IMG/VR virus record: IMGVR_UViG_3300033146_005953
Location: 1-31,745 of that record
Length of the DNA: 31,745 nucleotides
Source: a virus
Strand: one strand, 5' to 3'
This document shows, piece by piece, positions 7,346 through 24,659 of the stretch (position 1 is the stretch's first letter; every line of letters starts with the position of its first letter). Position numbers and translations under genes: made by a program. The notes beneath the pieces were generated by a model that was given only the letters and a program-made list of their open reading frames with translations, searched no databases and had not been told where the DNA came from.

Positions 7346-8770
7346 ATGAAAATTGAAATAAACGATTACGATGAGTTTGATCAAGAGAGATTATTTCTCT
7401 GTCAGCTTATCACCAACACGGGGATGCTCAAAGAAGTTTTCAATCAATTTGATCCGAATCTGCTGTCATCGGAGTATTCCCAAATAATTGGAAAGTGGAT
7501 AAAACAGCACTTTAAAGAGACTCAATCTGCTCCAGGGAAAGATTTACAGACTATTTTTTCAAGACGTTCCGGGGAAATACGGGATAAAGATGTTGTTAAA
7601 AATATTTCCATTCTTCTGGGATCCCTATCAGAAGACTGGGAAAAATATAAAATTGTAAATATTGATTACAATGCCAAAGCATTCATAAACTTTATGGATG
7701 AGCAAAATGCCCGGAGACTTGGGGAAGATGTCACTGATGCCATTGATATAGGAGACTTCAAAAGAGTTCATGAACTGGCCTCCGGGTATCAGAAGATACA
7801 GGTTGTTTCCTCAATTGGAGAATCGATCTTTGACAATCCCAGCAAATATGTGGATGCCTTTCATGAAGAAGACCAGAGATTATTTAAACTGCAGGGTGCA
7901 TTAGGATCCACTGTAGGTTGGTTTCGCCGGGGGGAATTCTCTGCTATCGTTGCCAGAACCAAAGGTGGAAAATCATATTTCAAATGGTATTGTGCTCGTA
8001 GAGGTGCTTCTGCAGGGCTGAAAGGAATCTATTTCAACTTGGAAATCAACCATAAAATGTTTGATAGAAGAGTGTGGCAGGATTTAACAGCATCACCGAA
8101 ATATGATAAAGAAGTGAAAATAGGTTTCTTCGATGAAGACAATGATATTGATTACAAATATGAAAATAGAAAAGGGCCGTCAGGGAAAAACGAAACTGAT
8201 TTTAAAAAGAAAATCCATCAATTTAAAAACCTTTACCGGCAAGGGGATGTATATCCGATAACGTATCCAAGAGGAAAAGCCACTCTTACGGATATGAGGA
8301 ACGATACAAAAAGGTTGTGGGAATATCATGGGTATCAGGCTGATTACGTCATAATTGATTATATGGATGAAATCAAACCAGACACCCATCACAAAGATAA
8401 ATTTGAGATAGAAAATGCCATATGGCAAAGTACGGCTGCTTGGGCTGCAGAAGATAATATTGGAATAATCTCATCAACACAGGGAAACCTGGATTCCTTT
8501 GATGGAAAAAGCTTTGGTGCTAAAGGTGTTGGTGGAGTGTATAAAAAGCTTTCTCATCCTGATAAACTTGTTGCCATGTTTTCCGGAGAATTAGATGAAG
8601 AACAGAGTGTCGTTCGGATAAAAAGGCTGTATGATAGAGATTCAGGACCATCCAGCAAAGTGTGTGTTGTCATTACCGGGATGGACATAGGAAGATTCTA
8701 CATTGATTCCAGAATGGCTGAAGAAGTAGGAAATCTTGAAACTGGCAAAAGGAAAAGAGGTGTGAAATGA
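7346..8770 (+). CDS. DnaB/gp41-like replicative DNA helicase
   Basis: A 474-residue protein. An N-terminal helical domain (residues 1-150; ERLFLCQLITNTGMLKEVF resembles the DnaB start) precedes a RecA-type motor. The Walker A is ARTKGGKS with Lys209, preceded by GWFRRGEFSAIVA, which matches the 'G..~G.l.iiaarpg.GKT' pattern of DnaB. GIYFNLEIN corresponds to the motif with the catalytic Glu, Walker B is VIIDYMDE (Asp338), and ISSTQGN matches the sensor motif 'tQ.N'. It would unwind the fork as a 5'-3' hexamer and work with the primase at the left edge. No separate helicase loader is recognisable nearby. Confidence 0.87.
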   Translation: MKIEINDYDEFDQERLFLCQLITNTGMLKEVFNQFDPNLLSSEYSQIIGKWIKQHFKETQSAPGKDLQTIFSRRSGEIRDKDVVKNISILLGSLSEDWEKYKIVNIDYNAKAFINFMDEQNARRLGEDVTDAIDIGDFKRVHELASGYQKIQVVSSIGESIFDNPSKYVDAFHEEDQRLFKLQGALGSTVGWFRRGEFSAIVARTKGGKSYFKWYCARRGASAGLKGIYFNLEINHKMFDRRVWQDLTASPKYDKEVKIGFFDEDNDIDYKYENRKGPSGKNETDFKKKIHQFKNLYRQGDVYPITYPRGKATLTDMRNDTKRLWEYHGYQADYVIIDYMDEIKPDTHHKDKFEIENAIWQSTAAWAAEDNIGIISSTQGNLDSFDGKSFGAKGVGGVYKKLSHPDKLVAMFSGELDEEQSVVRIKRLYDRDSGPSSKVCVVITGMDIGRFYIDSRMAEEVGNLETGKRKRGVK

Positions 8771-9027
8771 ATAAATATAATTTACAGGAATATGAACAAC
8801 GTCCACCAAATGAATGTCCTAAATGTGCTTCCGGGTCTAAAGTGATGCAGAGCAAAGCCAGAAAGGGTAAAATTTACAAAACCAGAAGGTGCTACAAATG
8901 TGGTCATACATGGAGTTGTGTCGAAATTTTATCTGACTATTTTGATGATTTGTATAGGTATCAGAAATCCATATATGAAATTCTGTCTTGCATGATTCCT
9001 ATGATAAAAATGTTCAAAAAAAATTAA
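8767..9027 (+). CDS. Zinc-ribbon protein (NrdR-like ribbon)
   Basis: An 86-residue protein overlapping the helicase stop by ATGA. Cys17-x2-Cys20 and Cys42-x2-Cys45 form a zinc ribbon; the spacing and the 'TRRCYKCGHTWSCVE' stretch resemble the ribbon of the NrdR repressor ('RRRECxxCxxRFTTxE'). There is no ATP-cone domain, so it is not NrdR itself. The C-terminal 40 residues are hydrophobic/aromatic and helical. It may be a small DNA-binding regulator or a partner of the helicase. Confidence 0.6.
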   Translation: MNKYNLQEYEQRPPNECPKCASGSKVMQSKARKGKIYKTRRCYKCGHTWSCVEILSDYFDDLYRYQKSIYEILSCMIPMIKMFKKN

Positions 9028-9037
9028 AGGAAATATT

Positions 9038-9679
9038 ATGTCAATGATCGATGCTACACGGAGAACCACAGATGATGAACATGATTTCTATCAGACACTT
9101 CCCTGCCAGATAAAATGCTTATGTGAATATCTGGATTTAAATGATAAACATGTTCTCGATGCTGGTTCTGGAATGGGAGTGATCTCCAAGCAATTAAGAA
9201 AATCATTTCCTAAAGTGAAATTAGAAACTTCAGAAAAGAATTTTAACAATCCATCTGACAAAAATATATTTTTTGATTTTGATTGTGCCTCTGGAATAGG
9301 GAATGAAGAAGACTTCCCAAAGGCTGACTTTGGCGATTTTCTCGAAGTAAAAGGATCCTTTGATTGTGTAATCAGCAATCCTCCATATTCACAAAAGGAT
9401 GCTTTTATTAAACATGCCTTGGAAATTTCCAAAGATGTGTTCATGCTCTTCCCTCTACAGGTTCTCAATTACATCAGCTTTTGCCAGAACTGGCTTGATA
9501 ATGAAAGTTATTGTGGAAGAATATTAATGTACCCAAAAGTAATTCTGAATCCTGAAGGAGAGTACCGGCAGGGAGGTAATACCGGGTATGCTTGGTTTCA
9601 TTGGACAAGTATCCCAAAGGAAGATTACCAAGGTCCCGATGGATATGAAGCCATTGAAGACATCAGAAAATATAAATAA
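9038..9679 (+). CDS. DNA N6-adenine-type methyltransferase
   Basis: A 213-residue protein behind AAAGGAAA (9027-9034). The SAM-binding motif I is HVLDAGSGMG (Asp41), and the catalytic motif IV is NPPY (residues 114-117, in DCVISNPPYSQ), which fits N6-adenine or N4-cytosine methyltransferases. The core is minimal: I see no clear target-recognition domain. An alternative is a protein or RNA methyltransferase, since NPPY also occurs in those, but the replication context favours DNA. It could protect phage DNA from host restriction or mark replicated DNA. The target sequence cannot be told from this sequence. Confidence 0.7.
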   Translation: MSMIDATRRTTDDEHDFYQTLPCQIKCLCEYLDLNDKHVLDAGSGMGVISKQLRKSFPKVKLETSEKNFNNPSDKNIFFDFDCASGIGNEEDFPKADFGDFLEVKGSFDCVISNPPYSQKDAFIKHALEISKDVFMLFPLQVLNYISFCQNWLDNESYCGRILMYPKVILNPEGEYRQGGNTGYAWFHWTSIPKEDYQGPDGYEAIEDIRKYK

Positions 9680-9684
9680 GTTTA

Positions 9685-9713
9685 TTCCGATAATAGAATT
9701 AAACAAATATAAT
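9685..9713 (+). promoter_or_regulatory. Promoter of the sliding clamp gene
   Basis: A perfect -10 box TATAAT at 9708-9713 lies 17 bases after TTCCGA (9685-9690, 3 of 6 matches to TTGACA). The start would be near 9720, just before the ribosome site AGGAG (9722-9726) and the ATG at 9734. This 54-base gap is one of few in the operon. The weak -35 suggests either an activator or modest strength. Confidence 0.5.
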
Positions 9714-9733
9714 TAAGTAATAGGAGCAGTTAA

Positions 9734-10849
9734 ATGCAAGTAGACAAAGGTGCTTTGCTAAAAGCAATTAAAAAAGTAATGCCCGGAGTAGGTTCCGGTG
9801 CAAAGGTTCTCGCTGGCAGTGACACCGTTATCTTTTCAAAGAGCGGTCTTCACTCATTCAATCGGGAAATATCCGTAACTGTACCATTTTCATTTGGTGA
9901 CGGTGAGAATGATGGTATTAATGGGACTGTGAATGCCACTGATCTTTTTAATATTCTGAACAACAAACGTTTGAAGGTAATTTCTGACACTCTGGAAGTG
10001 GAACAGCTTGAGACTGGAATCAAGTTCACTGGTAATGGTTGGGATGGAATCCTTGATCTGCAGGACGATTCGGAATGGATGACTGAGAAGATTGATGTAT
10101 TGAGTTCTGTGGACTGCAACAAAGAGCTTCCTACCGATTTCATGAAAGGTATGACACTCTGCTCCATTAAAGGGAATGCAACCCCACAGCAGGGTGTGTA
10201 CATCAAGGATACCGGGATGTTCTCCACTGACAGAACCATTGCAAACATTTATGAAATGGATTCTCCATGTGCAGAGTTTTGGATTGGTCAAAGTGAAGTC
10301 GATGAGTTCATAAAAGTTCCCAGTACATTTACCCATTATGCAATTTCATCCACGATGATGGGACACTGGGTTCATTTCAAAGACACTGAAGGAACCATTT
10401 TCTCCATGGCACTCAAAGATTGTTCTTTGTACAAGAATGCCCTTACCTTCCTGCAGAGTCAGGCTGACATTGAACCTGTTGATCCCAAATTGGCTGGAAG
10501 ACTTCCTGTTGGTTTTGCTGATGCCATCGATACCTGTTCAATGATGTCTGAAAAAGACGCTGCCAGTGGAAAGAAAAGTGTGGAAATCACTTTCAGCAGT
10601 ACGAAAATGGTTGTTAAAGGAATCAAAATCGGTGGAAAGCTCACCAACAGTCTTGAATGGGATGAAGATGCTCCCATGGATCTTGGTAAGGACAAACTGA
10701 AATACCGTTTTGTCAGCAACAATATTATTACAGCATCCAGGAAAGCCAAAGATTTTTTCATTAACAAAATGAAAGGATCCCAAGATGCTTGCATGATGAT
10801 TATGTATTCTGAAGATTTCAAAACGATTCTTTTGTCCATGGCTTCTTAA
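9734..10849 (+). CDS. DNA polymerase sliding clamp (beta/DnaN-like)
   Basis: A 371-residue protein, near the usual DnaN length. It has no catalytic motifs but shows the repeating beta-clamp pattern: GTVNATDLFNILNNKRLKVI, then alternating short strands (LEVEQLETGIKFTGNGWDGIL), a middle third with TDRTIANIYEM, and a last third ending FKTILLSMAS, like the 'lmPi/m' tail of beta clamps. The identification rests on this pattern, on length, and on position directly before the polymerase, with the clamp loader two genes on. It would encircle DNA and tether the polymerase. Confidence 0.65.
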   Translation: MQVDKGALLKAIKKVMPGVGSGAKVLAGSDTVIFSKSGLHSFNREISVTVPFSFGDGENDGINGTVNATDLFNILNNKRLKVISDTLEVEQLETGIKFTGNGWDGILDLQDDSEWMTEKIDVLSSVDCNKELPTDFMKGMTLCSIKGNATPQQGVYIKDTGMFSTDRTIANIYEMDSPCAEFWIGQSEVDEFIKVPSTFTHYAISSTMMGHWVHFKDTEGTIFSMALKDCSLYKNALTFLQSQADIEPVDPKLAGRLPVGFADAIDTCSMMSEKDAASGKKSVEITFSSTKMVVKGIKIGGKLTNSLEWDEDAPMDLGKDKLKYRFVSNNIITASRKAKDFFINKMKGSQDACMMIMYSEDFKTILLSMAS

Positions 10850-10858
10850 TCAATTTTC

Positions 10859-10897
10859 TGCACTGTTGTTGTTTTGCTACAGTGACAGTGCATTTTT
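10859..10897 (+). terminator. Probable rho-independent terminator after the clamp gene
   Basis: TGCACTGT (10859-10866) pairs with ACAGTGCA (10885-10892), followed by TTTTT at 10893-10897. A second ACAGTG at 10879-10884 offers a competing, shorter pairing, so the hairpin may switch. It lies between the clamp stop and the polymerase ribosome site (AGGAAA), so it may only lower read-through into the polymerase gene. Confidence 0.55.
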
Positions 10898-10915
10898 ATC
10901 AACATAGGAAATTAC

Positions 10916-13477
10916 ATGCAGGAAAAATTCTTTGATCTTGGTGAATCTATCCCTTACAACAAAATTGGAAAATCTGTATCAGGGTGCAGTAAATGCCCAC
11001 TACAGAACAATTGCAAAAATCCAAAGATGGAGTTTAAAGGTTCCGGTGGAAAGAAAGTTCTCATACTTTTTGGAAACCCATCAAATATAGAAGACAAACA
11101 CAACAAACCTTTTTCTGATGATCGTGGGGACGACCTTCGTTATTTCATGGAGGATATCGGATACGACTTGGAAAAAGACTGTTGGTATGGATATTCTGTT
11201 TCTTGTCGTTCAGAAAAACCTGTCACTGACAACCAAATTGGATATTGCCAAGAGCATTTGTTCAATCAGATAAACAGGTTTAATCCCAGAGTAATTATCC
11301 CGATGGGGGATGTTGCCATAAAATCAGTATTGAAATTCAGAATAGGTGGAAGATTGTCCGGATTAAAATATGCTCAGTACATCGGTCATTCAATACCTGA
11401 CCAAGACTGGCAGATAAACATAAACCCGAACTATTCCATTGAAGACATTTATAAGACAGAAGATTATCACGGAAATTACGACAAAGTTATGATAATGAGG
11501 TTCAAGCAATATCTGAAAAAAGCTTTTGTTGTTTCTGAATCTGCATTTTATGTCCACAACTATGCAAAAGATATTTTGATATATTTCGTTAAAAAGGAAA
11601 TCATATCATTATTGGAAAAGGTTCTTGCCAATTGGACTTTACTTGCCTTTGACTATGAAACCACAGGTCTGAAACCTTATGCTGAAGGACATAAAATATA
11701 CACTGTTGGAATTTCCAATGGTCAATTAGCTCATGCATTCCCATTTTTTAATGACAGTCCGAGATTTCTCACTGCTTGGAAGAAGATCATGGAATCTCCA
11801 AAGATAAAGAAAGTTGCACATAACGCCAAGTTTGAAAATATCTGGACGAAGATCAGAGGCAATGCTGAAATTGTAAACTTTCATTGGTGTACGATGATAT
11901 GTGAGCACATCCAGCATAACAAATCTGTAGTAGGAGCAAAATTTCTTTTTTATGTGTACTTGGGAGTCATGAATATGGATAGCCAAGTTGATCAGTATTT
12001 GAAACCTTCAGATGAAAATATCAAAAAGTATGGTGGCAATGCCATAAATACAATCGATGTTATCTGGAAAAAGAATCCCAGAGCTGTCCTGCAGTACCAG
12101 GGAGAAGATGCTTTTTACACTGCAAAATTATATGAAATTCAAATGGGATACTTCGACAAAAGAAAGAAAATGAAAAAAGCTTTTGAATATTTCCATGAAG
12201 GAATTTTGGCTTTAGGCGATGTTCAAATGAATGGAATCCATTTTGATGTAGAAAAATATGAAGAGAACATATCATTCATGGATGCCAAAATCTCAAAGTT
12301 GTGGGAAAGAACACTGGCTTTATCAGATGCTGAAGGATGGTCAAAGAACCTTACAGGTAAGACTTTTCAAAAGCATCTGTATGACACTTTGAAATATGAA
12401 GTTCCGGATATACCCGGAGAACACAAACCTGGAAATAGACCTGAATCGAAAGAAGCGTTGGAGAAAATAAACACTGATTTTTCTAAAAAAATAATCATGC
12501 TTCGGCAACAGACAAAAATAAAGACTTCTCTTGAAGGGTATTTCAGGGAATGCAGTGATGGAATATTAAGACCTTCCTATGGCGGACATAATGTAGATAC
12601 CTTCCGAACATCAGCCAATTCCCCGAACATTCAAAATCCTTTTAAGAGAAATAAGTTTGCCAAGAAAATGTTACGGGAAATGATTATTCCTGCTCCCGGT
12701 TGCCAGATAGTCGGAAAGGACTATAAAGCCATTGAGGTCAGTATCGCCGGTTGTATTTTTCCGGATGAGGCATGGTTGAAATATTGTGTAGATCCAACTA
12801 CGGATATGCACAGAGACTGTTCTGCAGAGATTTTGAAAATGTCTGTTCCGGATTACAATCAGTTAAAAGCTGCCAAAAGCATTCGGCAGGAAAACAAGAA
12901 CAAATGGGTATTTCCAAATATATATGGTTCTGGTGCTGTAAAAATGGCTGATAACATCTGGATAGCTTTAATGCTTATTCCAGAAGCAAAGGAAATCTTA
13001 TTAGATAAATTCGGCAGTTATCCCAAATTCAAAGAATGGATAAAAGAATACTATGAGTATTATTGGGAAGTGAAATACCCAGATTACAAACAGCAAAGAG
13101 ATAAAGCTCATAAAAGATATGAGAAGGTTGGGTACATAGATTCCCCTATTGGTTACAGATATTACGGCCCGATGAGCTACAATGACTTCTGCAATTATCC
13201 GGTACAGGGGTCGGCTGCTGGCATTAAGGTGTGGACGATTAAAGAAGCTAACCGGGAATTGAAAAGAAATAAAATGGCATCAACGATAATTTATGAGATT
13301 CATGATGAGATTGGTGGAAACGTATATCCAGAAGAGAGGAAAGAATATGATGAAATTGTAGAGAAAGTTGGGACAAAGGACGTAAGAGACTATTGGGATT
13401 GGATCATTACACCATTGGTACTGGAAACTGAAGAATCAGAAATTGATGGTGATTGGTCACAAATGGAAGAAAAATAA
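10916..13477 (+). CDS. UDG-like domain / 3'-5' exonuclease / family A DNA polymerase fusion
   Basis: An 853-residue replicative polymerase in three parts. Residues 1-200 resemble family 4 (iron-sulphur) uracil-DNA glycosylases: Cys24-x2-Cys27, then Cys97-x13-Cys111, and the FGNPSNIEDKHNKPFS and PRVIIPMGD motifs. The expected catalytic GExPG and HPS residues are replaced (GNP and NPN), so glycosylase activity is doubtful. Residues 240-430 are a proofreading exonuclease with DYE (Asp246, Glu248), AHNAKFEN and a YQGEDAFYTAKL motif. The polymerase has motif A GKDYKAIEV (Asp602), motif B ending in YG (670-671) and motif C IHDE (Asp797). The same layout is known for the phage SPO1 polymerase. Confidence 0.93.
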   Translation: MQEKFFDLGESIPYNKIGKSVSGCSKCPLQNNCKNPKMEFKGSGGKKVLILFGNPSNIEDKHNKPFSDDRGDDLRYFMEDIGYDLEKDCWYGYSVSCRSEKPVTDNQIGYCQEHLFNQINRFNPRVIIPMGDVAIKSVLKFRIGGRLSGLKYAQYIGHSIPDQDWQININPNYSIEDIYKTEDYHGNYDKVMIMRFKQYLKKAFVVSESAFYVHNYAKDILIYFVKKEIISLLEKVLANWTLLAFDYETTGLKPYAEGHKIYTVGISNGQLAHAFPFFNDSPRFLTAWKKIMESPKIKKVAHNAKFENIWTKIRGNAEIVNFHWCTMICEHIQHNKSVVGAKFLFYVYLGVMNMDSQVDQYLKPSDENIKKYGGNAINTIDVIWKKNPRAVLQYQGEDAFYTAKLYEIQMGYFDKRKKMKKAFEYFHEGILALGDVQMNGIHFDVEKYEENISFMDAKISKLWERTLALSDAEGWSKNLTGKTFQKHLYDTLKYEVPDIPGEHKPGNRPESKEALEKINTDFSKKIIMLRQQTKIKTSLEGYFRECSDGILRPSYGGHNVDTFRTSANSPNIQNPFKRNKFAKKMLREMIIPAPGCQIVGKDYKAIEVSIAGCIFPDEAWLKYCVDPTTDMHRDCSAEILKMSVPDYNQLKAAKSIRQENKNKWVFPNIYGSGAVKMADNIWIALMLIPEAKEILLDKFGSYPKFKEWIKEYYEYYWEVKYPDYKQQRDKAHKRYEKVGYIDSPIGYRYYGPMSYNDFCNYPVQGSAAGIKVWTIKEANRELKRNKMASTIIYEIHDEIGGNVYPEERKEYDEIVEKVGTKDVRDYWDWIITPLVLETEESEIDGDWSQMEEK

Positions 13478-15146: not shown

Positions 15147-15320
15147 ATGGATATTACAAAAATCGCATACAGAGAATTAATCAATCTCGGTGATTACAAT
15201 AATGTGGCAATAAAAATGGAAGCTACAGTAACTGAAGATGATGATATTTCTATGTGTGTTACAAAATTAAGAAACAAAGTGAGACGGGAATTACGTTTCA
15301 TAAGGGAGAATAACGAATGA
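15147..15320 (+). CDS. 57-residue protein, upstream of the UvsY-like gene
   Basis: A short gene with the strong ribosome site AAGGAGAG (15136-15143) and an ATGA overlap (15317-15320) with the next gene, which together make it convincing. The peptide starts MDITKIAYRELINLGDYNN, is followed by a beta strand (VAIKMEATVTEDD) and ends in a basic helix (VTKLRNKVRRELRFIRENN). I have the impression of similar small proteins near phage recombination genes but cannot name a family. Confidence 0.65.
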   Translation: MDITKIAYRELINLGDYNNVAIKMEATVTEDDDISMCVTKLRNKVRRELRFIRENNE

Positions 15321-16234
15321 GTGTTGAGAAGGCTATTCCACGAAAGAAAGGTCGTCCTCGTAAATTGTTTAACAGAAGTATTCAGGAAGATCGAAAGGTT
15401 TCCAAATACCATCTTGATGACAATGCAGAAGAACAGGCAGAGATGTTTGGTTATTGGTCTGATCTGGCTCCAATTGCAAAGAAGCAGGTTGATAATCTGT
15501 CACTCGATATAGAAATAAAACACAGTGAGAAATTTTCTTTCTTCAAAGAATCTCTTGATGGTGGAGTTGATTCAAAGGGAAACAAAAAACAACCCACTGA
15601 CACAATGGTAAACAGTGCTATTGCTGGGGATGAAGAAATGATTGCTCTTAAAAGAGAGCTTATCAAAAAACAGGAATACTACGGTCTTGTTATTTCTGCC
15701 ACAAAAACTCTGGAACACAGACGTTCTTCTCTCAATCTTCTTCGTGATCTGTACGAAGGAAATTACTATACGATCCAGGGAAATGAGAGTGATCAGTATC
15801 ATGCAAGAGAGGTGAAGAAAAACCGTTTGCAATCTGGAAAAGATAAAATTTCAAAAGGTCTGCAGAACATAACTGTTCCGGAAGAAGAAGCTGATCCTGA
15901 TGATCCTGAAGAAATTGACAATCCTGTTGAGGAAGTTGTTGAAGAAGAAAATGTAATTGTTGAAGATTTGGATACTGATAATGAAAAAATTGAAACTGTT
16001 ACAGAAGAACCGGAAGAACCGGAAGAACCGGAGGAGCCTGAAGAGGAAGAAGAGGAAGTAGAGCCTGATGAGGAACCTGAAGAAGTTCCTGTCAAAAAAG
16101 AACCTGACACTTCAATAAAGTCAGATGAGCCAGCATGTCCTAACGGATTTGTATTTGGAGAGTTTGGGCAACATGATGCCTGTGATGAATGTGACATTGA
16201 ATCTCAATGTTTCCGCAAATCGAGAATGAGGTAA
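15317..16234 (+). CDS. UvsY-like recombination mediator with AT-hook start and Cys4 tail
   Basis: A 305-residue protein of four parts. Residues 9-15 (RKKGRPRK) match an AT-hook. Residues about 35-160 (NAEEQAEMFGYW through YYGLVISATKTLEHRRSSLNL) resemble, as I recall T4 UvsY, its two halves in order, including the YxG and R-rich helix near the end. Residues 190-260 are a highly acidic Glu/Pro/Asp linker. The last 35 residues hold Cys274-x14-Cys289-x2-Cys292-x5-Cys298, almost the same tail as in the next gene. UvsY loads UvsX recombinase on gp32-coated single strands; the next two genes are the gp32-like and UvsX-like proteins, which supports the call. The domain assignment is by eye. Confidence 0.6.
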   Translation: MSVEKAIPRKKGRPRKLFNRSIQEDRKVSKYHLDDNAEEQAEMFGYWSDLAPIAKKQVDNLSLDIEIKHSEKFSFFKESLDGGVDSKGNKKQPTDTMVNSAIAGDEEMIALKRELIKKQEYYGLVISATKTLEHRRSSLNLLRDLYEGNYYTIQGNESDQYHAREVKKNRLQSGKDKISKGLQNITVPEEEADPDDPEEIDNPVEEVVEEENVIVEDLDTDNEKIETVTEEPEEPEEPEEPEEEEEEVEPDEEPEEVPVKKEPDTSIKSDEPACPNGFVFGEFGQHDACDECDIESQCFRKSRMR

Positions 16235-16244
16235 GGAGAGTATA

Positions 16245-17282
16245 ATGCCAAAAATCGGTAAAGGTTTGGTCAACAAACAGAAAGCAACCAGAGATAATTC
16301 CGGATTTGTCACCGCTGACAAAATATTGAACATCAAAAAGCATGGTGGAAAATGGCACAATTTCAAGTCAGATACCATTCACAAGATCAATATCCTTCCG
16401 TGGAAAATTACATCGAAAAAAGATGTAGCCTTCAGAATGAAAGGTGATTTCCATAAAGAGATAGGAGAATGGGTTTACTCCTTGAACTGCTGGATACATC
16501 CTCGGATCCACGATGAAAAGGATGTTCTGTGTCCCAAGAAAAACTTTGGAAAGCCTTGTGCCATTTGTGACAAAGCCAGTGAGAAATGGGATCTGTACAA
16601 TGCAGATAAAACTGATGATAAGAAAAAAGCTGCCAATGCTTTATCAGCAAAATTGAGATCCATGTACAACTTGGAAATCCTCACAGATGAACTTCGAGGA
16701 AAGAACTCATACTTTGAGGCTTCTGATTACATTTTTGAGGATGAGCTTCTTGAGAAAGCCACAGAATGTGAAGAAGGTGAAGAGCCTGTTGCCTTTTATG
16801 AAATTGATGATGAAGAAGGGAAAATTGTCAGGTTCAAAAGACCCAAGATCACTAGGGATCCTTACAAGAACTTTGAGTTCCAGAACCGGAAAAAGCCGAT
16901 CAGTAAAAAGCTTCTTGATGGTGTGATGAAGTTTGGTGAATTGGTTGATGTTATGACTTCCGAAGAAGTGTCTGACTTTTTCTTTGGTGCAAATTATACA
17001 GAATCTCCTGAAAAAGAAGATGAAACCACTGAAGAAGAAGATGCTTACGAAGAATACACTGAGGAAGAAGAATCTGAAAATGAGGAATCTCCTGAAGAAG
17101 AACCTGAAGAGGAAGAAGAGGAAGAAGAAGAGGAAGAAAAACCAACCAAAAAATCTTCTGATGGAAAATGGAAAAAATGCCCTTCTCCAAAAAAGTTTGG
17201 AGTTGAATTCGGTGAGTATGATGCCTGTGATGAATGCCCGGTTGAAATAGCCTGTCATAAAAAGAACAAATCATTACGGTGA
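16245..17282 (+). CDS. gp32-like single-stranded DNA-binding protein
   Basis: A 345-residue protein with ribosome site AAGGAGAG (16233-16240). The core has the phage T4 gp32 zinc signature: His85 (or His89), Cys96, Cys105-x2-Cys108, within IHDEKDVLCPKKNFGKPCAIC; gp32 uses His, Cys, Cys, Cys in similar spacing. Residues about 250-300 are very acidic, like the gp32 tail that recruits partners. Unusually, a Cys4 module follows the acid stretch (Cys312-x15-Cys328-x2-Cys331-x5-Cys337), nearly matching the end of the UvsY-like protein. It would coat single strands in replication and recombination. Confidence 0.82.
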   Translation: MPKIGKGLVNKQKATRDNSGFVTADKILNIKKHGGKWHNFKSDTIHKINILPWKITSKKDVAFRMKGDFHKEIGEWVYSLNCWIHPRIHDEKDVLCPKKNFGKPCAICDKASEKWDLYNADKTDDKKKAANALSAKLRSMYNLEILTDELRGKNSYFEASDYIFEDELLEKATECEEGEEPVAFYEIDDEEGKIVRFKRPKITRDPYKNFEFQNRKKPISKKLLDGVMKFGELVDVMTSEEVSDFFFGANYTESPEKEDETTEEEDAYEEYTEEEESENEESPEEEPEEEEEEEEEEEKPTKKSSDGKWKKCPSPKKFGVEFGEYDACDECPVEIACHKKNKSLR

Positions 17283-18442
17283 ACATTGACAATGCAATCT
17301 CGGAACTCAGAAATGGGATCCGAGGTTCAACCAACGAGGAAAAAATGAAACAAGAATATGCGAGAACCGGATGCCTTTTAACAGACCTTCTTTATGGTGG
17401 TGGGGATAATCTTGGAATACCTTATGGAGTGATGATAAATTTTGTGGGAGACACTTCATCAGGTAAGTCCATGACAGGAAATGAACTCATCGCTGCAGAG
17501 TATCACAACAGAAAAGGTAAAAAATTCATGCATCAATATGAAGATGCTGAATATGGGAATAAGTTTGATACAACTCATATGTATGGTCTGGATATTATGG
17601 GAACAAACGCTTTATCCAATATTCCCAGAAAGAAGTATCCTTCCCGACCAAAGACAGTTCAGGATGTTGATGCCAGAGTATCCCTGTTTATGAAAGAGAT
17701 TCCAGAAGATGGTTACGGAATATATTTTCTTGATTCTCTGGATGCAGTGACATCAAAAGAAATGCTTGACCGGAGTGAAAAAAGAGAAACTGACTATAAG
17801 AAAAACAATGGGACCAACGACGATGGAACATTTGGAGCACAGGCAGCTAAGTTTTTATCTCAAGAATTCTTCCGGGTTCAAGGTGGGAAAATAGAAGATA
17901 GAAAAATAATTATCGGGATTGTGTCTCAGGTTCGTGAAGTTATTGGTGCAACAATGTTCCAGAAAAAAATAAGAGATTCTGGAGGAAAGGCCAAAGGTCA
18001 CTGGATGAGCATGAAAATATGGTTCACTCCAAGACAATATTTGTACATGCCGAAATCAAAAAGAGCATATGGACAATTGTTTAATATCCACATGGACAAA
18101 ACCAGGGATGGAAAGATCAAAAGAGAATGTACAATTGTGTACGATACCGGGCATGGAATTGATGATGTCAAAACTTCTCTGGATTTTTTATATGACACCA
18201 GGGATTCAAAAACTGGAAAGTTGAAAAAGTCTGCAGAAACTCTTGATTTCATACAGTTCCTGAAACCAACCATAATGAAAAAATATGACAGTGAAATTGA
18301 AGAAACCTATCATTATGGAGCACTGCACAAACTGATTCGGAAACACAAAGAGTTTAAAGATGCTCTTGATTCTGCAGTCATTGAAAAATGGAGACAGTTG
18401 GAGACTGAATCACAATCCGGAATAGGGGGTAAATACTCATGA
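17279..18442 (+). CDS. RecA/UvsX-like recombinase
   Basis: A 387-residue protein starting with GTG, overlapping the previous stop as GTGA (17279-17282). Walker A is GDTSSGKS (Lys63), preceded by GIPYGVMINFVG as in the RecA family. YEDAEYG matches the region with the catalytic Glu, and YFLDSLDAV is Walker B. GIVSQVRE corresponds to the motif near loop L2 of the DNA-binding site. It forms filaments on single strands and drives strand exchange. The SSB and the UvsY-like mediator lie immediately upstream and the resolvase, Mre11 and Rad50 parts downstream: a complete recombination set. Confidence 0.92.
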   Translation: MNIDNAISELRNGIRGSTNEEKMKQEYARTGCLLTDLLYGGGDNLGIPYGVMINFVGDTSSGKSMTGNELIAAEYHNRKGKKFMHQYEDAEYGNKFDTTHMYGLDIMGTNALSNIPRKKYPSRPKTVQDVDARVSLFMKEIPEDGYGIYFLDSLDAVTSKEMLDRSEKRETDYKKNNGTNDDGTFGAQAAKFLSQEFFRVQGGKIEDRKIIIGIVSQVREVIGATMFQKKIRDSGGKAKGHWMSMKIWFTPRQYLYMPKSKRAYGQLFNIHMDKTRDGKIKRECTIVYDTGHGIDDVKTSLDFLYDTRDSKTGKLKKSAETLDFIQFLKPTIMKKYDSEIEETYHYGALHKLIRKHKEFKDALDSAVIEKWRQLETESQSGIGGKYS

Positions 18443-18588: not shown

Positions 18589-18818
18589 TGTATGTTTTAG
18601 ACAGATTATCCACAGAAATGAAAATAAATTATATGGATTTGTTTGGAAAAACATACACATATCATGCTGGCACAGGAGATAAAAGTGTTCTTGTTCGGAA
18701 TGTGTTCACCTGTAATGAACGTGATTTCCTTGCCTGTGTTGCGTTGGAATATTTAAAAGGAAAAGATATTCGTGTTTTTGAAAATGAACCAAATAAAGTA
18801 AAACCAAATGCAGACTGA
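18588..18818 (+). CDS. Small protein of unknown function
   Basis: The protein has 76 residues from ATG 18588 behind AAAGGAAG; an overlapping GTG at 18585 is less likely. The sequence is mixed alpha/beta (MYVLDRLSTEMKINYMDLF, ACVALEYLKGKDIRVFENE). No recognisable motif is seen. It overlaps the resolvase gene by 11 bases, so the two are probably co-translated. Confidence 0.5.
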   Translation: MYVLDRLSTEMKINYMDLFGKTYTYHAGTGDKSVLVRNVFTCNERDFLACVALEYLKGKDIRVFENEPNKVKPNAD

Positions 18819-19314
18819 CAAAATATATATCGGGGTTGATAATGGTGTGTCTGGAACTATTGCTATTTTGACTCCCGGTAAAAACATATTTATAGAAACT
18901 CCTGTGTTCAAGCAATTGAATTTTCAGAAAACAAAAAAGCAGAACATAAACCGTTTGCATTTTTTGAAATTGAGCAAAATATTCAGCATGTATGTGGCTG
19001 ATAAAAATTGCTTTGCTGTCATAGAAAGACCTTTGGTGAACGGTAAAATGTTTAAAGCCACTATGTCTGCAGTCAGATGTCTTGAAGCCACATTGATATT
19101 GTTTGAGCTGTTTGATATTCCGTATCAATATACAGATTCAAAATTGTGGCAGAAAGATTTATTACCCGGTGGAACCATTGGTTCTGTGGCACTGAAGGAA
19201 GCCAGTCGGGATGTAGGCATCAGAATGTTCCCAGAGCATAAAGAGCTGATCAGGAAGCATGGTGATGCTGATGGATTGTTATTGGCTGCATATGCCAAAA
19301 AATACAACCTGTAA
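18808..19314 (+). CDS. RuvC-like Holliday junction resolvase
   Basis: A 168-residue protein with an RNase H-fold start, IYIGVDNGVSGTIAIL (Asp11), a central acidic residue in FAVIERP (Glu73) and a C-terminal acidic cluster HGDADGLLLA (Asp153, Asp155). This is the order and spacing of the RuvC catalytic acids. The size also fits RuvC. It would cut four-way junctions made by the recombinase before packaging, the job of endonuclease VII in T4. The family is clear; cleavage specificity cannot be judged. Confidence 0.82.
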   Translation: MQTDKIYIGVDNGVSGTIAILTPGKNIFIETPVFKQLNFQKTKKQNINRLHFLKLSKIFSMYVADKNCFAVIERPLVNGKMFKATMSAVRCLEATLILFELFDIPYQYTDSKLWQKDLLPGGTIGSVALKEASRDVGIRMFPEHKELIRKHGDADGLLLAAYAKKYNL

Positions 19315-19323
19315 GGAAACCTT

Positions 19324-20574
19324 ATGATTGATAAATTGATATTGAAAAATTTCCAATCACATAAAAATTCCACCTTTGAATTTTCAAAAGGAATCACTTC
19401 TATTATTGGTGAATCTGATAATGGTAAAACAGCTGCTTTCAGAGCCTTTGAAGGTGTGATGAATAACAAAGGGTTTGGTTTGGAAAATGCCTCTCATTGG
19501 ATCACAGAGGTCACAGACTCCGGAAAAATCAAACTTATGGATATCATGTCGGCAACAGTGGTATTCACGGAAGGAAAATATGTAACCAGAGAACGGGATG
19601 AAAATGGTTTCAATGGTTACAAAATGGGAACGTACTCAAATGGAAAGTTCAAAGAGACTCAGGTATTCAACAAAGTTGGTGTGAGTGTTCCTTTTCCTAT
19701 TCGTGAATTGTTTAATATGGACACTGTGAACATTCAGAATCAGCATGACACAATGTTTCTTTTATCTGATACAGGGCAGGATGTCGCCAGATACTTCAAT
19801 AAGTTAATCAAACTGGATGTGGCTGATGTCGCTTTATCTGCTTCAGAAAGAAGAAAAAGAGCTGCCAATAAAGATGTTCGGGAATTGGATGAGGAAATAA
19901 CTGATCTTGAAAATGCTTTGGAAAAACTTTCCTGGGTTGATCAGGCTTCTGTGTTTGCATCGAGAATAGAAGTTTCCGAAAGCAAAATAAAAAAGATCGA
20001 AGATACCGTTTATGACATTGATGAGATGATTGAGAACATCAATGTAGTTTCAAAAAAATGCAACCTGTCTGATTATCATGAACAGGCCATGATAGTATTG
20101 GAAAGAATATCCATTCTATCGGAGAAAATCACAGCACTGGATGATAAAATTTACAACATTACTGTGATCGAAGTTGATATCAGAAATCTCCATACCAAAA
20201 TAATGAATGCTTCTTGGATGGCTTCCACTGATATCATCATTGATAAAATCGAAAGATTGACAAAATCGATTCAGGAAAAACACGACAGATGGATCAGCAT
20301 TGATGATATGCTTTCAGAAATAAAAAATTGTGAAAACAATTTATCTGAAGCTGATTATTCCAATGATGCTTTATTGATACTGAATAAAATTGACAAAGTG
20401 TCTTCTGACATAATTTCCACTGCAGAGAAAATTGATGACTTGGATATGCTCATAATGAAAATTGAAGCTTGTATGAAGAAAGAAACACTTTTACAGACCT
20501 CCATAACGGCTCTACAATCGGAGTTCCCTGATACTTGTCCTACGTGTGGTCAGCAATTGAAGGTGACAGCATGA
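19324..20574 (+). CDS. Rad50/SbcC/gp46 N-lobe with coiled coil and zinc hook, separate gene
   Basis: A 416-residue protein. The start is typical of Rad50/gp46: LILKNFQSHKNSTFEF, Walker A GESDNGKT (Lys35), and a Q-loop-like NIQNQHDTMF. From about residue 165 to 400 it is one long coiled coil. The zinc hook CPTCGQ (Cys405, Cys408) comes eight residues before the stop. There is no C-lobe: signature, Walker B and the returning coil are missing. A protein with the missing ATPase parts is encoded at 21883. Two such chains would have to pair to build ATP sites. The stop overlaps the Mre11-like start (ATGA). Confidence 0.85.
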   Translation: MIDKLILKNFQSHKNSTFEFSKGITSIIGESDNGKTAAFRAFEGVMNNKGFGLENASHWITEVTDSGKIKLMDIMSATVVFTEGKYVTRERDENGFNGYKMGTYSNGKFKETQVFNKVGVSVPFPIRELFNMDTVNIQNQHDTMFLLSDTGQDVARYFNKLIKLDVADVALSASERRKRAANKDVRELDEEITDLENALEKLSWVDQASVFASRIEVSESKIKKIEDTVYDIDEMIENINVVSKKCNLSDYHEQAMIVLERISILSEKITALDDKIYNITVIEVDIRNLHTKIMNASWMASTDIIIDKIERLTKSIQEKHDRWISIDDMLSEIKNCENNLSEADYSNDALLILNKIDKVSSDIISTAEKIDDLDMLIMKIEACMKKETLLQTSITALQSEFPDTCPTCGQQLKVTA

Positions 20575-21452
20575 AGTACACAGTAACAGCAGACTGGCAT
20601 TTACGCCCGGATTCCCCAAGATGCCGTTCAGATGAGAATTGGGAAAAGACCATGGAGAAGATGATTCAGTTTATTGTAGATACCAATAAAGGTGATTCTG
20701 CAAAATTGACAATCATCGGGGATCTGTTTGATTTCTCTCAGCAACCACCATGGATTGTGAATATGTTTCTCGATCTGGTTCCTGATGGAGTTATCTTTGC
20801 TGGTAATCATGATTTCAAACATAGAAATATGAATGAGATTGAGGCATCTTCCATAGGGCATTTATTGAAGAATCCAAAATATGAAGCCTGTGTTCCGGAA
20901 ATAGAAGATGGATTTTTTGAGTATTCAAAAGATTTACTGTTCTGTCACAGACTGGTTTACTCCCCGGAGAACGCTGGACTTGAAAAATTCAAGAACGGAA
21001 TATCTGTGGATACTCTCATAGAAGAAGCTGCAGATGTCTGCAGTTCTGTAAAATGGATATTCATTGGAGACAACCATCATAAGTTTCATCACATATCCCC
21101 GGAAGGTATTCATGTGATCAATCCTGGAAGCCCGTTGATTTACAATGCCAGTATGATTGGAAGCACCTGTGGATTTTACACTGTAGACACTGATAAGGAA
21201 ACCGTTGAGTTTCACGAAGTTCCGGACAATCCTGATATCCTCACAGACAAATATTTGAGAGATAAAGAAGCTCATTCAGAAAAGATGCAGGAATTTGTAG
21301 CTTCCCTGAATGACTCTGAAGTAAAGACAATGGATTTTTTTGAACTTTGTGATGAGAAAGCAAAGTCGGAAGATAAAGAGTTTCTTTCAATTTATGAAGA
21401 TATCAAAACTGAGACCATACAAATAAAAACAAAATTAGGAAAAGGAGCATAA
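20571..21452 (+). CDS. Mre11/SbcD/gp47-like nuclease
   Basis: A 293-residue protein starting at the ATGA overlap with the Rad50 N-lobe. Metallophosphoesterase motifs in order: DWH (Asp8, His10), GDLFD (Asp51), GNHD (79-81), FCH (His126), and GDNHH at 166-170. The last motif is usually GHxH in Mre11; here the first His is Asp167 (GDNH), an oddity that may alter metal binding or be a neutral change. It would process DNA ends together with the two Rad50 lobes. It is shorter than bacterial SbcD (about 400) and close to phage gp47. Confidence 0.88.
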   Translation: MKYTVTADWHLRPDSPRCRSDENWEKTMEKMIQFIVDTNKGDSAKLTIIGDLFDFSQQPPWIVNMFLDLVPDGVIFAGNHDFKHRNMNEIEASSIGHLLKNPKYEACVPEIEDGFFEYSKDLLFCHRLVYSPENAGLEKFKNGISVDTLIEEAADVCSSVKWIFIGDNHHKFHHISPEGIHVINPGSPLIYNASMIGSTCGFYTVDTDKETVEFHEVPDNPDILTDKYLRDKEAHSEKMQEFVASLNDSEVKTMDFFELCDEKAKSEDKEFLSIYEDIKTETIQIKTKLGKGA

Positions 21453-21453
21453 A

Positions 21454-21633
21454 ATGAAAATAGCATTAAACCTTCAGGAATATGTAGAAATTGCAAAAAA
21501 GGAAATTGATGATTTCAAAAAAGAGTGGGAAGAGAGTTCAAAAAAAGACCCGTCTAATTATCCTGAAACTATGTGTATTGAGGATTGGGAAGATCAAGCT
21601 CAAGCGTTTAAATCTTTACAGGAGGATTTCTAA
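21454..21633 (+). CDS. 59-residue acidic helical protein in the Mre11/Rad50 cluster
   Basis: The gene has the ribosome site AAAGGAG (21440-21446) and a TAATG overlap with the next gene (21631-21635), with two bases between it and the Mre11 stop. The peptide is charged and helical (YVEIAKKEIDDFKKEWEES), with a Trp/Asp-rich end (CIEDWEDQAQAFKSLQEDF). No family is recognised. Its location inside the split Rad50 operon suggests an accessory role. Confidence 0.6.
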   Translation: MKIALNLQEYVEIAKKEIDDFKKEWEESSKKDPSNYPETMCIEDWEDQAQAFKSLQEDF

Positions 21634-21893
21634 TGAATGCATCACAGTATGAAGCACTTAAAAATAAGCTAGAAGCAGAGAAAAGCGAAGTAGAGCAGAA
21701 CAAAGGCCGGCTGAAACAACTGAAGGACACTGCAAAGGCCACTTTTAAAGTTGACTCTATAGAAGGACTCCGGAAACTCAAAGAGGATCTGGAAGTGGAT
21801 CTGGACATGCAACAGACAAAGAAAAAGAAACAGATTGAAAAACTTGAATCGATTGTTCCTGAAGAAGTCATGAGAGAAATAAATGAATTTTAA
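21633..21893 (+). CDS. Coiled-coil protein, possible detached arm of split Rad50
   Basis: The 86-residue protein is almost all coiled coil (residues 1-35 and 45-80, separated by AKATFKVDS). It has no cysteine. The stop lies 11 bases inside the next gene, the Rad50 C-lobe. In an intact Rad50 this position would be the returning coil that runs from the hook to the C-lobe, so this gene may be a remnant or a dedicated partner of the N-lobe coil. This is inference from order and composition. Confidence 0.6.
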   Translation: MNASQYEALKNKLEAEKSEVEQNKGRLKQLKDTAKATFKVDSIEGLRKLKEDLEVDLDMQQTKKKKQIEKLESIVPEEVMREINEF

Positions 21894-22485
21894 TGTAATC
21901 AAAAATAAGGAATACGACAAGAACCGAATCGAAGAAGAAATCTTATTGTACAAAAACAAACTGGTTGAGAAGAAGAAGCATTATGAAACTGTGTGTAAAG
22001 TGCAATTGCTTCTTCAAAACTCAGCAAATGAAATTCAGAATGCTTTGAAAATATTCATCACAGGGATAAATCAGCAAGCATTGGATATTGCTTTCCCTGG
22101 ATACACTTTCAATATGGAGTTCACAACAAAGAACAATGTTTCCTTTGCCGGGATATATGTTGAGAACCACGGAAGAAAACAAAAGCCGATGGATTCAAAT
22201 GGTGGTGGTCTGAGTAACATCATTGCCATATGTTCTCAAATGGGTGCAAAGAAGATGAGCCACACCAGAGACGTAATACTGGCAGACCAGCCTATGAAAG
22301 ATTTATCCAAGGGGCCAAAAGAAGAATTGGCTATGGAAATGCTGAAGACGATTACTGAAGATATGGGACTTCAATATATAATGATTTCTCACATAAGTTC
22401 TCAAATAGATTCTGCAGACAAGACCATCACCGTAAAAATTAAATACGATGATGATCTTGGATACCCTGTTAGCAGTGTTTCTTGA
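21883..22485 (+). CDS. Rad50/SbcC/gp46 C-lobe ATPase, separate gene
   Basis: A 200-residue protein: a short coil (residues 1-60), then the C-terminal ABC half. A glycine-rich signature-like stretch (SNGGGLSN, Gly107-Ser111) precedes Walker B VILADQPMKDLS (Asp135) and an H-loop MISH (His170). In ABC/SMC ATPases Walker B Asp is followed by catalytic Glu; here it is Gln136, the change used to trap these enzymes with ATP bound. No Walker A is present, as expected for a C-lobe only. The partner N-lobe is the gene at 19324. It is the last + strand gene before the convergent tail genes. Confidence 0.78.
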   Translation: MNFNVIKNKEYDKNRIEEEILLYKNKLVEKKKHYETVCKVQLLLQNSANEIQNALKIFITGINQQALDIAFPGYTFNMEFTTKNNVSFAGIYVENHGRKQKPMDSNGGGLSNIIAICSQMGAKKMSHTRDVILADQPMKDLSKGPKEELAMEMLKTITEDMGLQYIMISHISSQIDSADKTITVKIKYDDDLGYPVSSVS

Positions 22486-22487
22486 TT

Positions 22488-24659
22488 TTATACGAATTTA
22501 TGTTCCAGAGCAAATTCATCAGTACTTAATCCATTTGATATAAAATTTTCTATTTCCCAAATTTTATTAACTGTTACTTTTGTTTTGTATATCACTAAAT
22601 AAGGACTGTCATAAGAAACAGCTGCTAAATATGTGCCATCAGGAGAAAACGCCAAACCTCTAACAGCTCCTACTGGCATTGCTGAAAAGGGGGCTGTAGC
22701 TACAAAAAAGTCACCTGATCTTTTATATAATATAACTCTATTGGTTGAATTGTATGTTCCTATAGCACAATAAACACCATCTTTTGTAAATGTTGGAGAA
22801 TATGCTCCTGAACCAGTTGCAGGAATCATTTCTGGTAATTTTATAAAAGTGTCACCATATCTTTTATAAACTATAGTTTTCGTTCCATAATTGCTACCAC
22901 ACACTAAATATATTCCATCAGAAGAAAACGCAATTTTGTTTAAATTACCTGCTGGTAATGTAGAAGGATCTGGTAGTTTAGTAAAAGTATCTCCTGATCT
23001 TTTATAAATTGTAATATCTGGTGCATGAGAATGACCTACTGCCAAATACACATCATCAGGAGTAAATGACAATCCTTCAACAGTTCCTGCTGGTATTGTA
23101 GAAGGATCAGATAGCTTCGTAAAAGTATCTCCTGATCTTTTATAAATTATGATATATGGACTATTATCATAACCTACTGCCAAATATACTCCATTAGTAG
23201 AAAATGCGGTAACATAACCTTGTGCTGTTGGTAATGTAGAAGGATTAGGTAGCTTCGTAAAAGTATCTCCTGATCTTTTATAAATTGTAATATATGGAGA
23301 ATACGCTGAAGCACATGCTAAATACACACCATCAGGAGAAAACGAAAGTCCTATTACAGTTCCTGCTGGTAATGTAGAAGGATTAGGTAGTTTAGTAAAA
23401 GTATCTCCTGATCTTTTATAAATTGTGATATATGGACTAGTACCATGACCTACTACCAAATATACTCCATCAGGAGAAAATGTGGTAAACCATCCATTGC
23501 CAGTTGGCATAATAGAAGGATCAGATAGTTTAGTTCCAGGTTCATCTACAATAAGATCAGATCCAACATAGCGTAATTCAATTTTTTCTTTTTTTGATAA
23601 TGACACATATCCAGAAGCTCCCTTTGTAGTACGGAAAGCTCCTTTATACATAATGATATGCTCTGGATCACTTTGAATAATTTTTACATTTCCGTCTGCT
23701 TTTATGATTACAGCATCTCCTTCATTTGGAGAAGGAGGAAGTGTTACATCGTAATCACCTTTTATTAAATATTTAGATTTTTGAGTTAAAGTTTTATTTC
23801 CTGTTACACCTATATAAGTATCAATAACATCCAATAAAGTATAAAAATATGATGAAGGATGAATATCTCCTAAATCACAAACAGTTAAAGTTTGACTGAT
23901 CCTTAATTCAGAACGATTAATCAATATCTGATAATCAAATATCCCACCTTCTACGGGAACGGGTAATTCACTAATATTACAATATGAAATATTTATAATA
24001 TAATCAGCAGAACCTCCACCATTAGCAGAAACATTACAGCCAGGAAAATTTAAAATATTAATTTTGTTACAGTATATTGGATAAATTCCTGAATCATAAA
24101 CTACTGCTCCAATGTCTATATTCCCTTCAAAAGACACAGCATGGCATACACTCATGTTTATAAATACATATTGTCCTTCTGCTCCTGAATTATCCACTTG
24201 TACAAGTTTAATCCAAGGAGATATTGTGACTGTAGCTGTACAATTCTTAATATTAAATCCTGCATAAGATGTGAAATTCAATTGTGCAACAGTACTGCCT
24301 TCATCTGCTGATCTTATATAAACATTTCCAGAATAAAATCCATTTATGTTTAATCCATCACCGATAGTTGTGGTAGTATATGTTGTATGAGATCCTGATG
24401 CAAATTCAAAGATTACATTATATCCATTCAAATTTTTAGGAATGGCATCTATTTTTGCTTGAGCAGCAACCAAATTATCAGTGGTTAAAATATTAACTGT
24501 AGTATTTTCCTGTAAAGCTTTAGGAATTTCTTCAAGAAAAGTTGCTTTAGTTGATTTTTTATCACGAACACCGTCTATTCCTCTGAGAACATAAATTACA
24601 TCAGTATCTTCACTATCTGTAAGTTCCGGAAAATCTAAGACTGTTTTGTCTGTCGCCAT
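22488..24659 (-). CDS. Tail fibre with C-terminal seven-bladed beta-propeller
   Basis: A 723-residue protein behind AGGAGA (complement of 24665-24670). The N-terminus (DFPELTDSEDTDVIYVLRG) is typical of fibres that dock on the baseplate. Residues about 50-350 are repetitive beta strands rich in Asn, Gly, Ser and Ile, fitting a beta-helix or shaft. Residues about 376-693 are seven repeats of about 46 residues, each with FSPDGVYLAVG, SPYITIYKRSGDTF and TKLPNPSTLPAG-like segments, as in WD40-type propellers. The closing segment VNKIWEIENFISNGL may be a final helix. By place (last in the tail operon) it should be the receptor-binding protein. No chaperone gene is seen before the convergent neighbour, 2 bases away. 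Confidence 0.85.
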   Translation of the reverse strand: MATDKTVLDFPELTDSEDTDVIYVLRGIDGVRDKKSTKATFLEEIPKALQENTTVNILTTDNLVAAQAKIDAIPKNLNGYNVIFEFASGSHTTYTTTTIGDGLNINGFYSGNVYIRSADEGSTVAQLNFTSYAGFNIKNCTATVTISPWIKLVQVDNSGAEGQYVFINMSVCHAVSFEGNIDIGAVVYDSGIYPIYCNKINILNFPGCNVSANGGGSADYIINISYCNISELPVPVEGGIFDYQILINRSELRISQTLTVCDLGDIHPSSYFYTLLDVIDTYIGVTGNKTLTQKSKYLIKGDYDVTLPPSPNEGDAVIIKADGNVKIIQSDPEHIIMYKGAFRTTKGASGYVSLSKKEKIELRYVGSDLIVDEPGTKLSDPSIMPTGNGWFTTFSPDGVYLVVGHGTSPYITIYKRSGDTFTKLPNPSTLPAGTVIGLSFSPDGVYLACASAYSPYITIYKRSGDTFTKLPNPSTLPTAQGYVTAFSTNGVYLAVGYDNSPYIIIYKRSGDTFTKLSDPSTIPAGTVEGLSFTPDDVYLAVGHSHAPDITIYKRSGDTFTKLPDPSTLPAGNLNKIAFSSDGIYLVCGSNYGTKTIVYKRYGDTFIKLPEMIPATGSGAYSPTFTKDGVYCAIGTYNSTNRVILYKRSGDFFVATAPFSAMPVGAVRGLAFSPDGTYLAAVSYDSPYLVIYKTKVTVNKIWEIENFISNGLSTDEFALEHKFV
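22580..23530 (-). repeat. Tandem 138-bp repeats coding for propeller blades
   Basis: A core of 26 bases beginning GTAAAAGTATCTCCTGATCT occurs at 22981, 23119, 23257 and 23395, exactly 138 bases apart, which is 46 codons. Three more diverged units complete seven. The unusually high DNA identity of four central units suggests recent duplication or gene conversion. Confidence 0.85.

Follow-up and report, generated by a model that had tools for sequence, protein, structure and literature searches.

Five consecutive open reading frames on the + strand, between positions 19324 and 22485 of the window (the whole 31,745-nucleotide stretch of viral DNA that was analysed), encode an N-terminal half of Rad50, an Mre11-like protein, two small proteins of 59 and 86 amino acids, and a C-terminal half of Rad50. 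They lie in a phage replication-recombination module, which according to Pfam and PHROG matches includes an SNF2-type helicase, a DnaB-like helicase, a family A polymerase and a clamp loader, as well as UvsY-like and SSB-like proteins with weak PHROG matches. The features of the locus, with two upstream genes given as context, are:

17279-18442, + strand: UvsX-like recombinase (context; PHROG 97, 3e-18)
18808-19314, + strand: RuvC-like Holliday junction resolvase (context; PHROG 1770, 7e-12)
19324-20574, + strand: Rad50 N-half, 416 aa, consisting of N-lobe, repeat arm and C-terminal zinc hook (Pfam, PHROG, PDB, Foldseek)
19408-19431, + strand: Walker A GESDNGKT, residues 29-36; G29, G34 and K35 invariant in 37 N-halves
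19741-19743, + strand: Q-loop glutamine Q140, invariant in 37 N-halves
19834-20535, + strand: arm, residues 171-404, built of 47-residue tandem repeats (self-match against shuffles)
20536-20547, + strand: zinc hook CPTC, residues 405-408; C405, P406 and C408 invariant in 37 N-halves (1l8d, 6zff)
20571-21452, + strand: Mre11/SbcD-like phosphoesterase, 293 aa (Metallophos, PHROG 100)
21454-21633, + strand: 59-aa frame, no function assigned by Pfam and PHROG scans
21633-21893, + strand: two-helix protein of 86 aa at the site of the small subunit (position, size, C-terminal end)
21883-22485, + strand: Rad50 C-half, 200 aa, consisting of a short helix and the C-lobe (PHROG 15167, profile, PDB, Foldseek)
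22201-22209, + strand: ABC signature GGG, residues 107-109, invariant in 37 C-halves
22285-22290, + strand: Walker B Asp135, invariant, and Gln136, which replaces the catalytic Glu found in 40 others
22390-22392, + strand: H-loop His170, invariant in 37 C-halves

The N-half gene starts with an ATG at 19324, and its stop codon (20572-20574) is overlapped by the ATG of the Mre11-like gene (ATGA). The 86-aa frame has AGGAGG just 5' of it and shares 11 bases with the C-half gene. The original prediction had described five intact and tightly overlapped frames, an N-half that stops eight residues after its hook, and a separate gene carrying the signature, Walker B and H-loop. All five frames are indeed open, and the tail that follows CPTC is GQQLKVTA and then a stop. 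The C-half motifs were located in a gene of their own, but the Walker B motif is degenerate, with DQ for DE. With Walker A in the N-half and the GGG signature, Walker B D135 and H170 in the C-half, the ATP sites would have to be assembled from separate chains, as had been proposed; the new means of control suggested along with this is speculative.

The two halves and the Mre11-like protein

By sequence and by predicted structure, both lobes and the hook are those of a Rad50 protein. The N-half matches Pfam AAA_23 (2e-11), PHROG 16465 (9e-17) and PHROG 77 (3e-9). A profile of 37 N-halves matches Rad50 N-lobes in the PDB (3aux, 5e-12), and the C-terminal end of this profile aligns with two isolated zinc hooks of Rad50, 1l8d and 6zff. 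For the C-half the match is PHROG 15167 (8e-16), a family of 211 positions that is annotated 'ATPase', and a profile of 37 C-halves matches PDB Rad50 C-lobes (3qkr_B, 3e-10). Group profiles built without the window recover its N-half at 5e-34 and its C-half at 8e-21. These leave-one-out profiles, together with the trees described below, make both halves of the window homologous members of a split Rad50 group. The AlphaFold2 runs took no rows from public phage records; the Foldseek matches of the resulting models are Rad50/SMC N-lobes for the N-half (mean pLDDT 75) and Rad50/SMC C-lobes for the C-half (mean pLDDT 81).

The arm of the N-half is 234 residues long, or about five 47-residue units. 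Its self-match is 127 at offset 47 and 102 at offset 94, compared to 34.8 ± 5.1 for 7-mer shuffles. The repeat is visible in the protein only, not in the DNA letters of the window. Most of the relatives tested also have a 47-residue repeat; the length is 44 in LR745208 and 38 in Tunturi_5, and is unclear in Mvi-JY20. The same self-match test gave nothing clear above shuffles for E. coli SbcC and T4 gp46, and one Bacilli SbcC gave a weaker signal at 41 and 34. In the AlphaFold2 model the helices span residues 166-201, 204-299, 306-341 and 347-400, the last two breaks being poorly confident. The arm may be largely self-supporting, which would explain the very short returning strand: the small protein and the N-terminal helix of the C-half are, when summed, shorter than the arm of the N-half.

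The hook is not universal among split N-halves, because CPxC is missing from the N-half of Magritte and is replaced by CGKC in Tunturi_5. The Mre11-like protein matches Metallophos (2e-7) and the SbcD-like family PHROG 100 (9e-8). Its motifs DWH, GDLFD, GNHD and GDNHH align with those of its relatives, motif V being GDNHH rather than GHxH.

Split Rad50 in other phages and in Bacilli

The same split is found in five other, unrelated phages: vB_BboS-125, LR745208, Tunturi_5, Mvi-JY20 and Magritte. The gene order of the window is repeated in Microcystis phage Mvi-JY20 (N-half, Mre11, small gene, C-half). In the 485-kb phage record LR745208 a sliding clamp gene follows the small gene, so that the order is N-half, Mre11, small gene, sliding clamp, C-half. 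The N-half, small and Mre11 genes of Tunturiibacter phage Tunturi_5 are clustered, and its C-half gene is about 107 kb away in the coordinates of the record. The two halves are also far apart in Microbacterium phage Magritte. Bacillus phage vB_BboS-125 has the order N-half, HNH gene, 78-aa helical gene, C-half, plus an unannotated Mre11 frame. The latter lies just 3' of the C-half gene (L001:9094-10209, + strand) in a part of the public record that is largely unannotated, and the gene between the N-half and the small gene (L001:7392-7964, + strand) is a homing-type endonuclease gene of the HNH/AP2 kind.

The position of Mre11 between the halves had been noted earlier, and conservation of the gene order in related phages had been named as a check. 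The former holds in the window but is not constant, since relatives have Mre11 ahead of the halves, between them or behind them; the latter holds for Mvi-JY20, but the other phages differ. Mre11 is linked to the halves in all carriers except Magritte, for which the retrieved stretches were covered. The split had also been judged an established arrangement rather than an error, and relatives from independent isolates are split as well. The case named beforehand as speaking against the idea, a relative whose gene is intact in the same surroundings, was not found, and the relatives found are likewise split. That a single gene was broken by an error of assembly or sequencing is for practical purposes dismissed: the window is a single virus record, but a frame error cannot insert an Mre11 gene between the halves, and independent isolates share the split, one of them in the same order.

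Single-chain forms occur in Achromobacter phage JWF, T4 and E. coli. In Vibrio phage 294E48.1 (L109:4972-6849, + strand) SbcC lies in two frames that are broken just after the N-lobe, one of 162 aa followed by one of 414 aa with the hook and the C-lobe; this is a different split, a frameshift or an error. Single-protein scans of viral contigs with the window halves or the Mvi-JY20 C-half found no relatives, and no second copy of the window phage was found in the viral contig scans. A BLAST search of phages with the C-half at a loose E-value gave chance matches only.

The vB_BboS-125 proteins match PHROG 16465 (N-half), PHROG 18563 (small protein) and PHROG 15167 (C-half), and the window halves match the first and the last of these. 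Of 399 Bacilli genomes sampled, 51 have a match to the small family PHROG 18563, as against none among 14 controls. Two of the 51 matches are loci already found with the vB_BboS-125 C-half (Sutcliffiella horikoshii, L012; Brevibacillus fulvus, L015). Mre11, the N-half and the C-half are present in 48 of the remaining 49 genomes; one locus (L094) has the small frame without the other module genes. In 47 of the 48, the genes are on the same strand and are ordered Mre11, N-half, (small), C-half. At one locus (L093 in genome G195; 8511-11330, - strand) a single 940-aa frame encodes a fusion of Mre11 with the N-half, next to a C-half of its own frame. Motifs of recA and RNase Y lie in the same stretch in 36 of the 48 loci, and at locus L054 Pfam confirms recA, recX, Mre11, N-half, RNase Y, ymdB and spoVS, with the small and C-half genes in place. 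The usual chromosomal site of the split module is between recA-recX and RNase Y. As a chromosomal operon the split also occurs in many Bacilli, so that it is not peculiar to the window phage.

The SbcC model TIGR00618 matches long chains in three of the 48 carriers (G038, G304 and G195), and a further match, in G178, is confined to 55 positions of the model within a frame of 668 aa. Single-chain SbcC is undetectable in 45 of 48 carriers, compared to 16 of 108 non-carriers, at a threshold of E 1e-8 (the B. subtilis control is missed at E 1e-40). In a sample of 121 Bacilli genomes, with carrier status read from the PHROG 18563 survey and only the best candidates per genome scored, TIGR00618 matches 94, namely 2 of 13 carriers and 92 of 108 non-carriers (Fisher 6e-7). 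The carriers are related to each other, so that the absence of SbcC is a pattern and not an independent test. The split complex appears to replace SbcC in the carrier Bacilli.

A tree of N-lobes places 25 split sequences on one side of a branch and ten single-chain sequences on the other, with support of 100/99 and in all bootstraps. The C-lobe tree separates split from single-chain forms at 89/96. One origin of the split forms is favoured by these trees, which are limited by long branches and few single-chain references. Comparison of sequences and models establishes that the split arrangement is inherited across phages and Bacilli.

Proposed architecture and activity of the complex

The locus is predicted to encode an Mre11-Rad50 complex of the SbcCD type that processes DNA ends and whose Rad50 is assembled in trans; we give this reading a probability of about 0.8. 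A pair of one N-half and one C-half would form one ABC head, and two such heads would sandwich ATP. Two polypeptides can form a catalytic head, because the N-lobe and C-lobe of the P. furiosus Rad50 catalytic domain (PDB 1f2t and 1f2u) are likewise separate chains. That protein, however, is a laboratory construct without arm and hook, whereas the split in the window is natural. The arm would be made mainly of the 47-residue repeat array of the N-half, with a full-length returning coil in the C-half unneeded, and the terminal hooks of two N-halves would share a zinc ion to give an N-half dimer. The small two-helix protein would join the N-terminal helix of the C-half to the base of the arm, or cap that base, and Mre11 would dock close by. 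In the window phage the task of the complex, alongside the UvsX-like recombinase and the resolvase, would be the processing of DNA ends in recombination-dependent replication; many Bacilli would use the same complex as their cellular SbcCD.

A more ambitious reading joins these elements. It holds that the split systems are a separate Mre11-Rad50 branch, common to phages, in which Rad50 consists of three obligate chains (an N-half with a self-supporting repeat arm that ends in a zinc hook; a small coupling subunit of two helices; and a C-half), that this branch has taken the place of SbcCD in a considerable fraction of Bacilli, and that the window copy is an ATP clamp naturally trapped before hydrolysis by its DQ. 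As a whole this is tentative, and the odds are against all of its parts being correct together.

The role of the small gene is one such part. Among the relatives, a small helical gene separates the two halves almost invariably. All 52 of the Bacilli and prophage loci examined have either a frame of 55-125 aa or a small-family match between the halves, and in four of the five other phages the small helical gene adjoins a half. The small proteins of Bacilli and prophages are mostly 75-105 aa long, with the consensus helix, GVEPDxLxEEI, helix, LLPxEL. PPR matches of the small-family profile arise from the short GVxPD turn and were set aside. The 86-aa protein of the window ends in IVPEEV (compare LLPxEL of the family). 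It is assigned as the third subunit by its position, because a small-family profile of the PHROG 18563 type built without the window misses it, and hhalign gave no support. No counterpart of the 59-aa frame was identified in the relatives. Rad50 might have two parts only, N-half and C-half acting with Mre11, and the small gene might be a co-transcribed neighbour, for example an inhibitor or a loader. The missing statistical link between the 86-aa protein and the small family is in line with this idea, as is Magritte, where no small gene was seen adjoining either half. The constancy of the small gene elsewhere argues against it, and the small gene of Tunturi_5 has stayed by the N-half although the C-half has moved off. 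We consider a two-part Rad50 doubtful, but worth keeping in mind.

The Walker B motif raises a different alternative. It reads ADQP in the window, and is DE in all 40 of the other C-halves among the 41 aligned. Replacement of Glu by Gln at this site traps ABC ATPases in the ATP-bound state. SMC3 'EQ' structures, so named in their PDB titles, are among the Foldseek matches of the C-half model. If the DQ is real, the window copy may hold ATP without hydrolysis; it could also mean that the ATPase is weak or dead. The window complex might accordingly act not as a nuclease motor but as a clamp or tether, in which the Gln keeps ATP bound and the heads closed so that DNA ends are bridged. The uniqueness of DQ fits such a clamp, but a single base separates GAG from CAG, the phage is represented by one copy, and the catalytic base could come from another residue. 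A tether of this kind is unlikely, though not to the point of neglect.

That the split is a step toward loss and the halves are inert is a far weaker proposition. The degenerate Walker B would agree with decay, but the frames are intact and tightly overlapped, the other motifs are invariant across great divergence, and the arrangement is long-lived and recurrent; we regard decay as very improbable. Slightly less probable still is a Lamassu-type defence ATPase (LmuB) in place of an end-processing complex. The N-half (1.6e-8) and the C-half (6e-5) do match LmuB models, but the N-half is matched by AriA and GajA models too, the gene constantly linked to the halves is that of Mre11, and the module usually sits in the chromosome between recA-recX and RNase Y, which is not a defence island; in the phage, the neighbours are recombination genes. 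LmuB is a single-chain ATPase accompanied by Lamassu effector genes, and the window has two chains, recombination neighbours and weak matches.

Relation to known systems and neighbouring genes

The predicted Mre11-Rad50 complex shares with E. coli SbcC-SbcD and T4 gp46-gp47 an ABC head of N-lobe and C-lobe, a CPxC hook and a putative Mre11 phosphoesterase partner, and with gp46-gp47 also a location beside replication-recombination genes. SbcC and gp46, however, carry both lobes and the coil in one chain, whereas the window has two chains. Further differences of the split members are the arm of 47-residue repeats and, in most of them, a small helical gene that lies between the halves. Both lobes in one chain, with an outgoing and a returning coil, by which Rad50/SbcC is defined, are found neither in the window nor in its relatives.

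An unbroken Rad50 chain, running from the N-lobe along the coil to the hook and back to the C-lobe, is regarded as fundamental to the transfer of ATP state between head and hook. A natural and widespread split would mean that the returning coil strand can do without a covalent link, and perhaps without its full length. The halves of a split system can be expressed, mutated or titrated singly. The split complex is the likely end-processing complex of those Bacilli in which SbcC was not detected, and the system is best read as a wider variant of SbcCD and not as a curiosity of one phage.

PHROG 16465, 18563 and 15167 are annotated singly, as exonuclease, unknown and ATPase, respectively. In the parts of the literature and databases that were searched, no account treats them as a single complex or links them to chromosomal operons, and the portions of full text covered contained no description of a split Rad50. 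Fusion proteins of Mre11 and Rad50, as far as the part of PMC3175470 seen goes, are an unusual gene organization of the same complex, but a fusion and not a split; the Bacilli locus L093 differs from them in fusing Mre11 to the N-half alone. The SbcC proteins of T4 and SPN3US are single chains according to the portion of PMC5105663 consulted.

Several neighbours of the locus have features of their own. The UvsY-like gene (15317-16234, + strand) adjoins the SSB-like gene (16245-17282, + strand). Both proteins have Glu-rich stretches, and they have similar Cys-containing C-terminal tails, FGEFGQHDACDECDIESQC and FGEYDACDECPVEIAC, respectively. An 853-aa frame at 10916-13477 (+ strand) combines, according to Pfam, a Uracil-DNA glycosylase domain with a 3'-5' exonuclease and a family A polymerase. 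Downstream, and convergent with the C-half gene, a gene on the - strand (22488-24659) near the tail genes encodes a 723-aa protein with propeller-like repeats of the type AGTVxGLSFSPDGVYLA.
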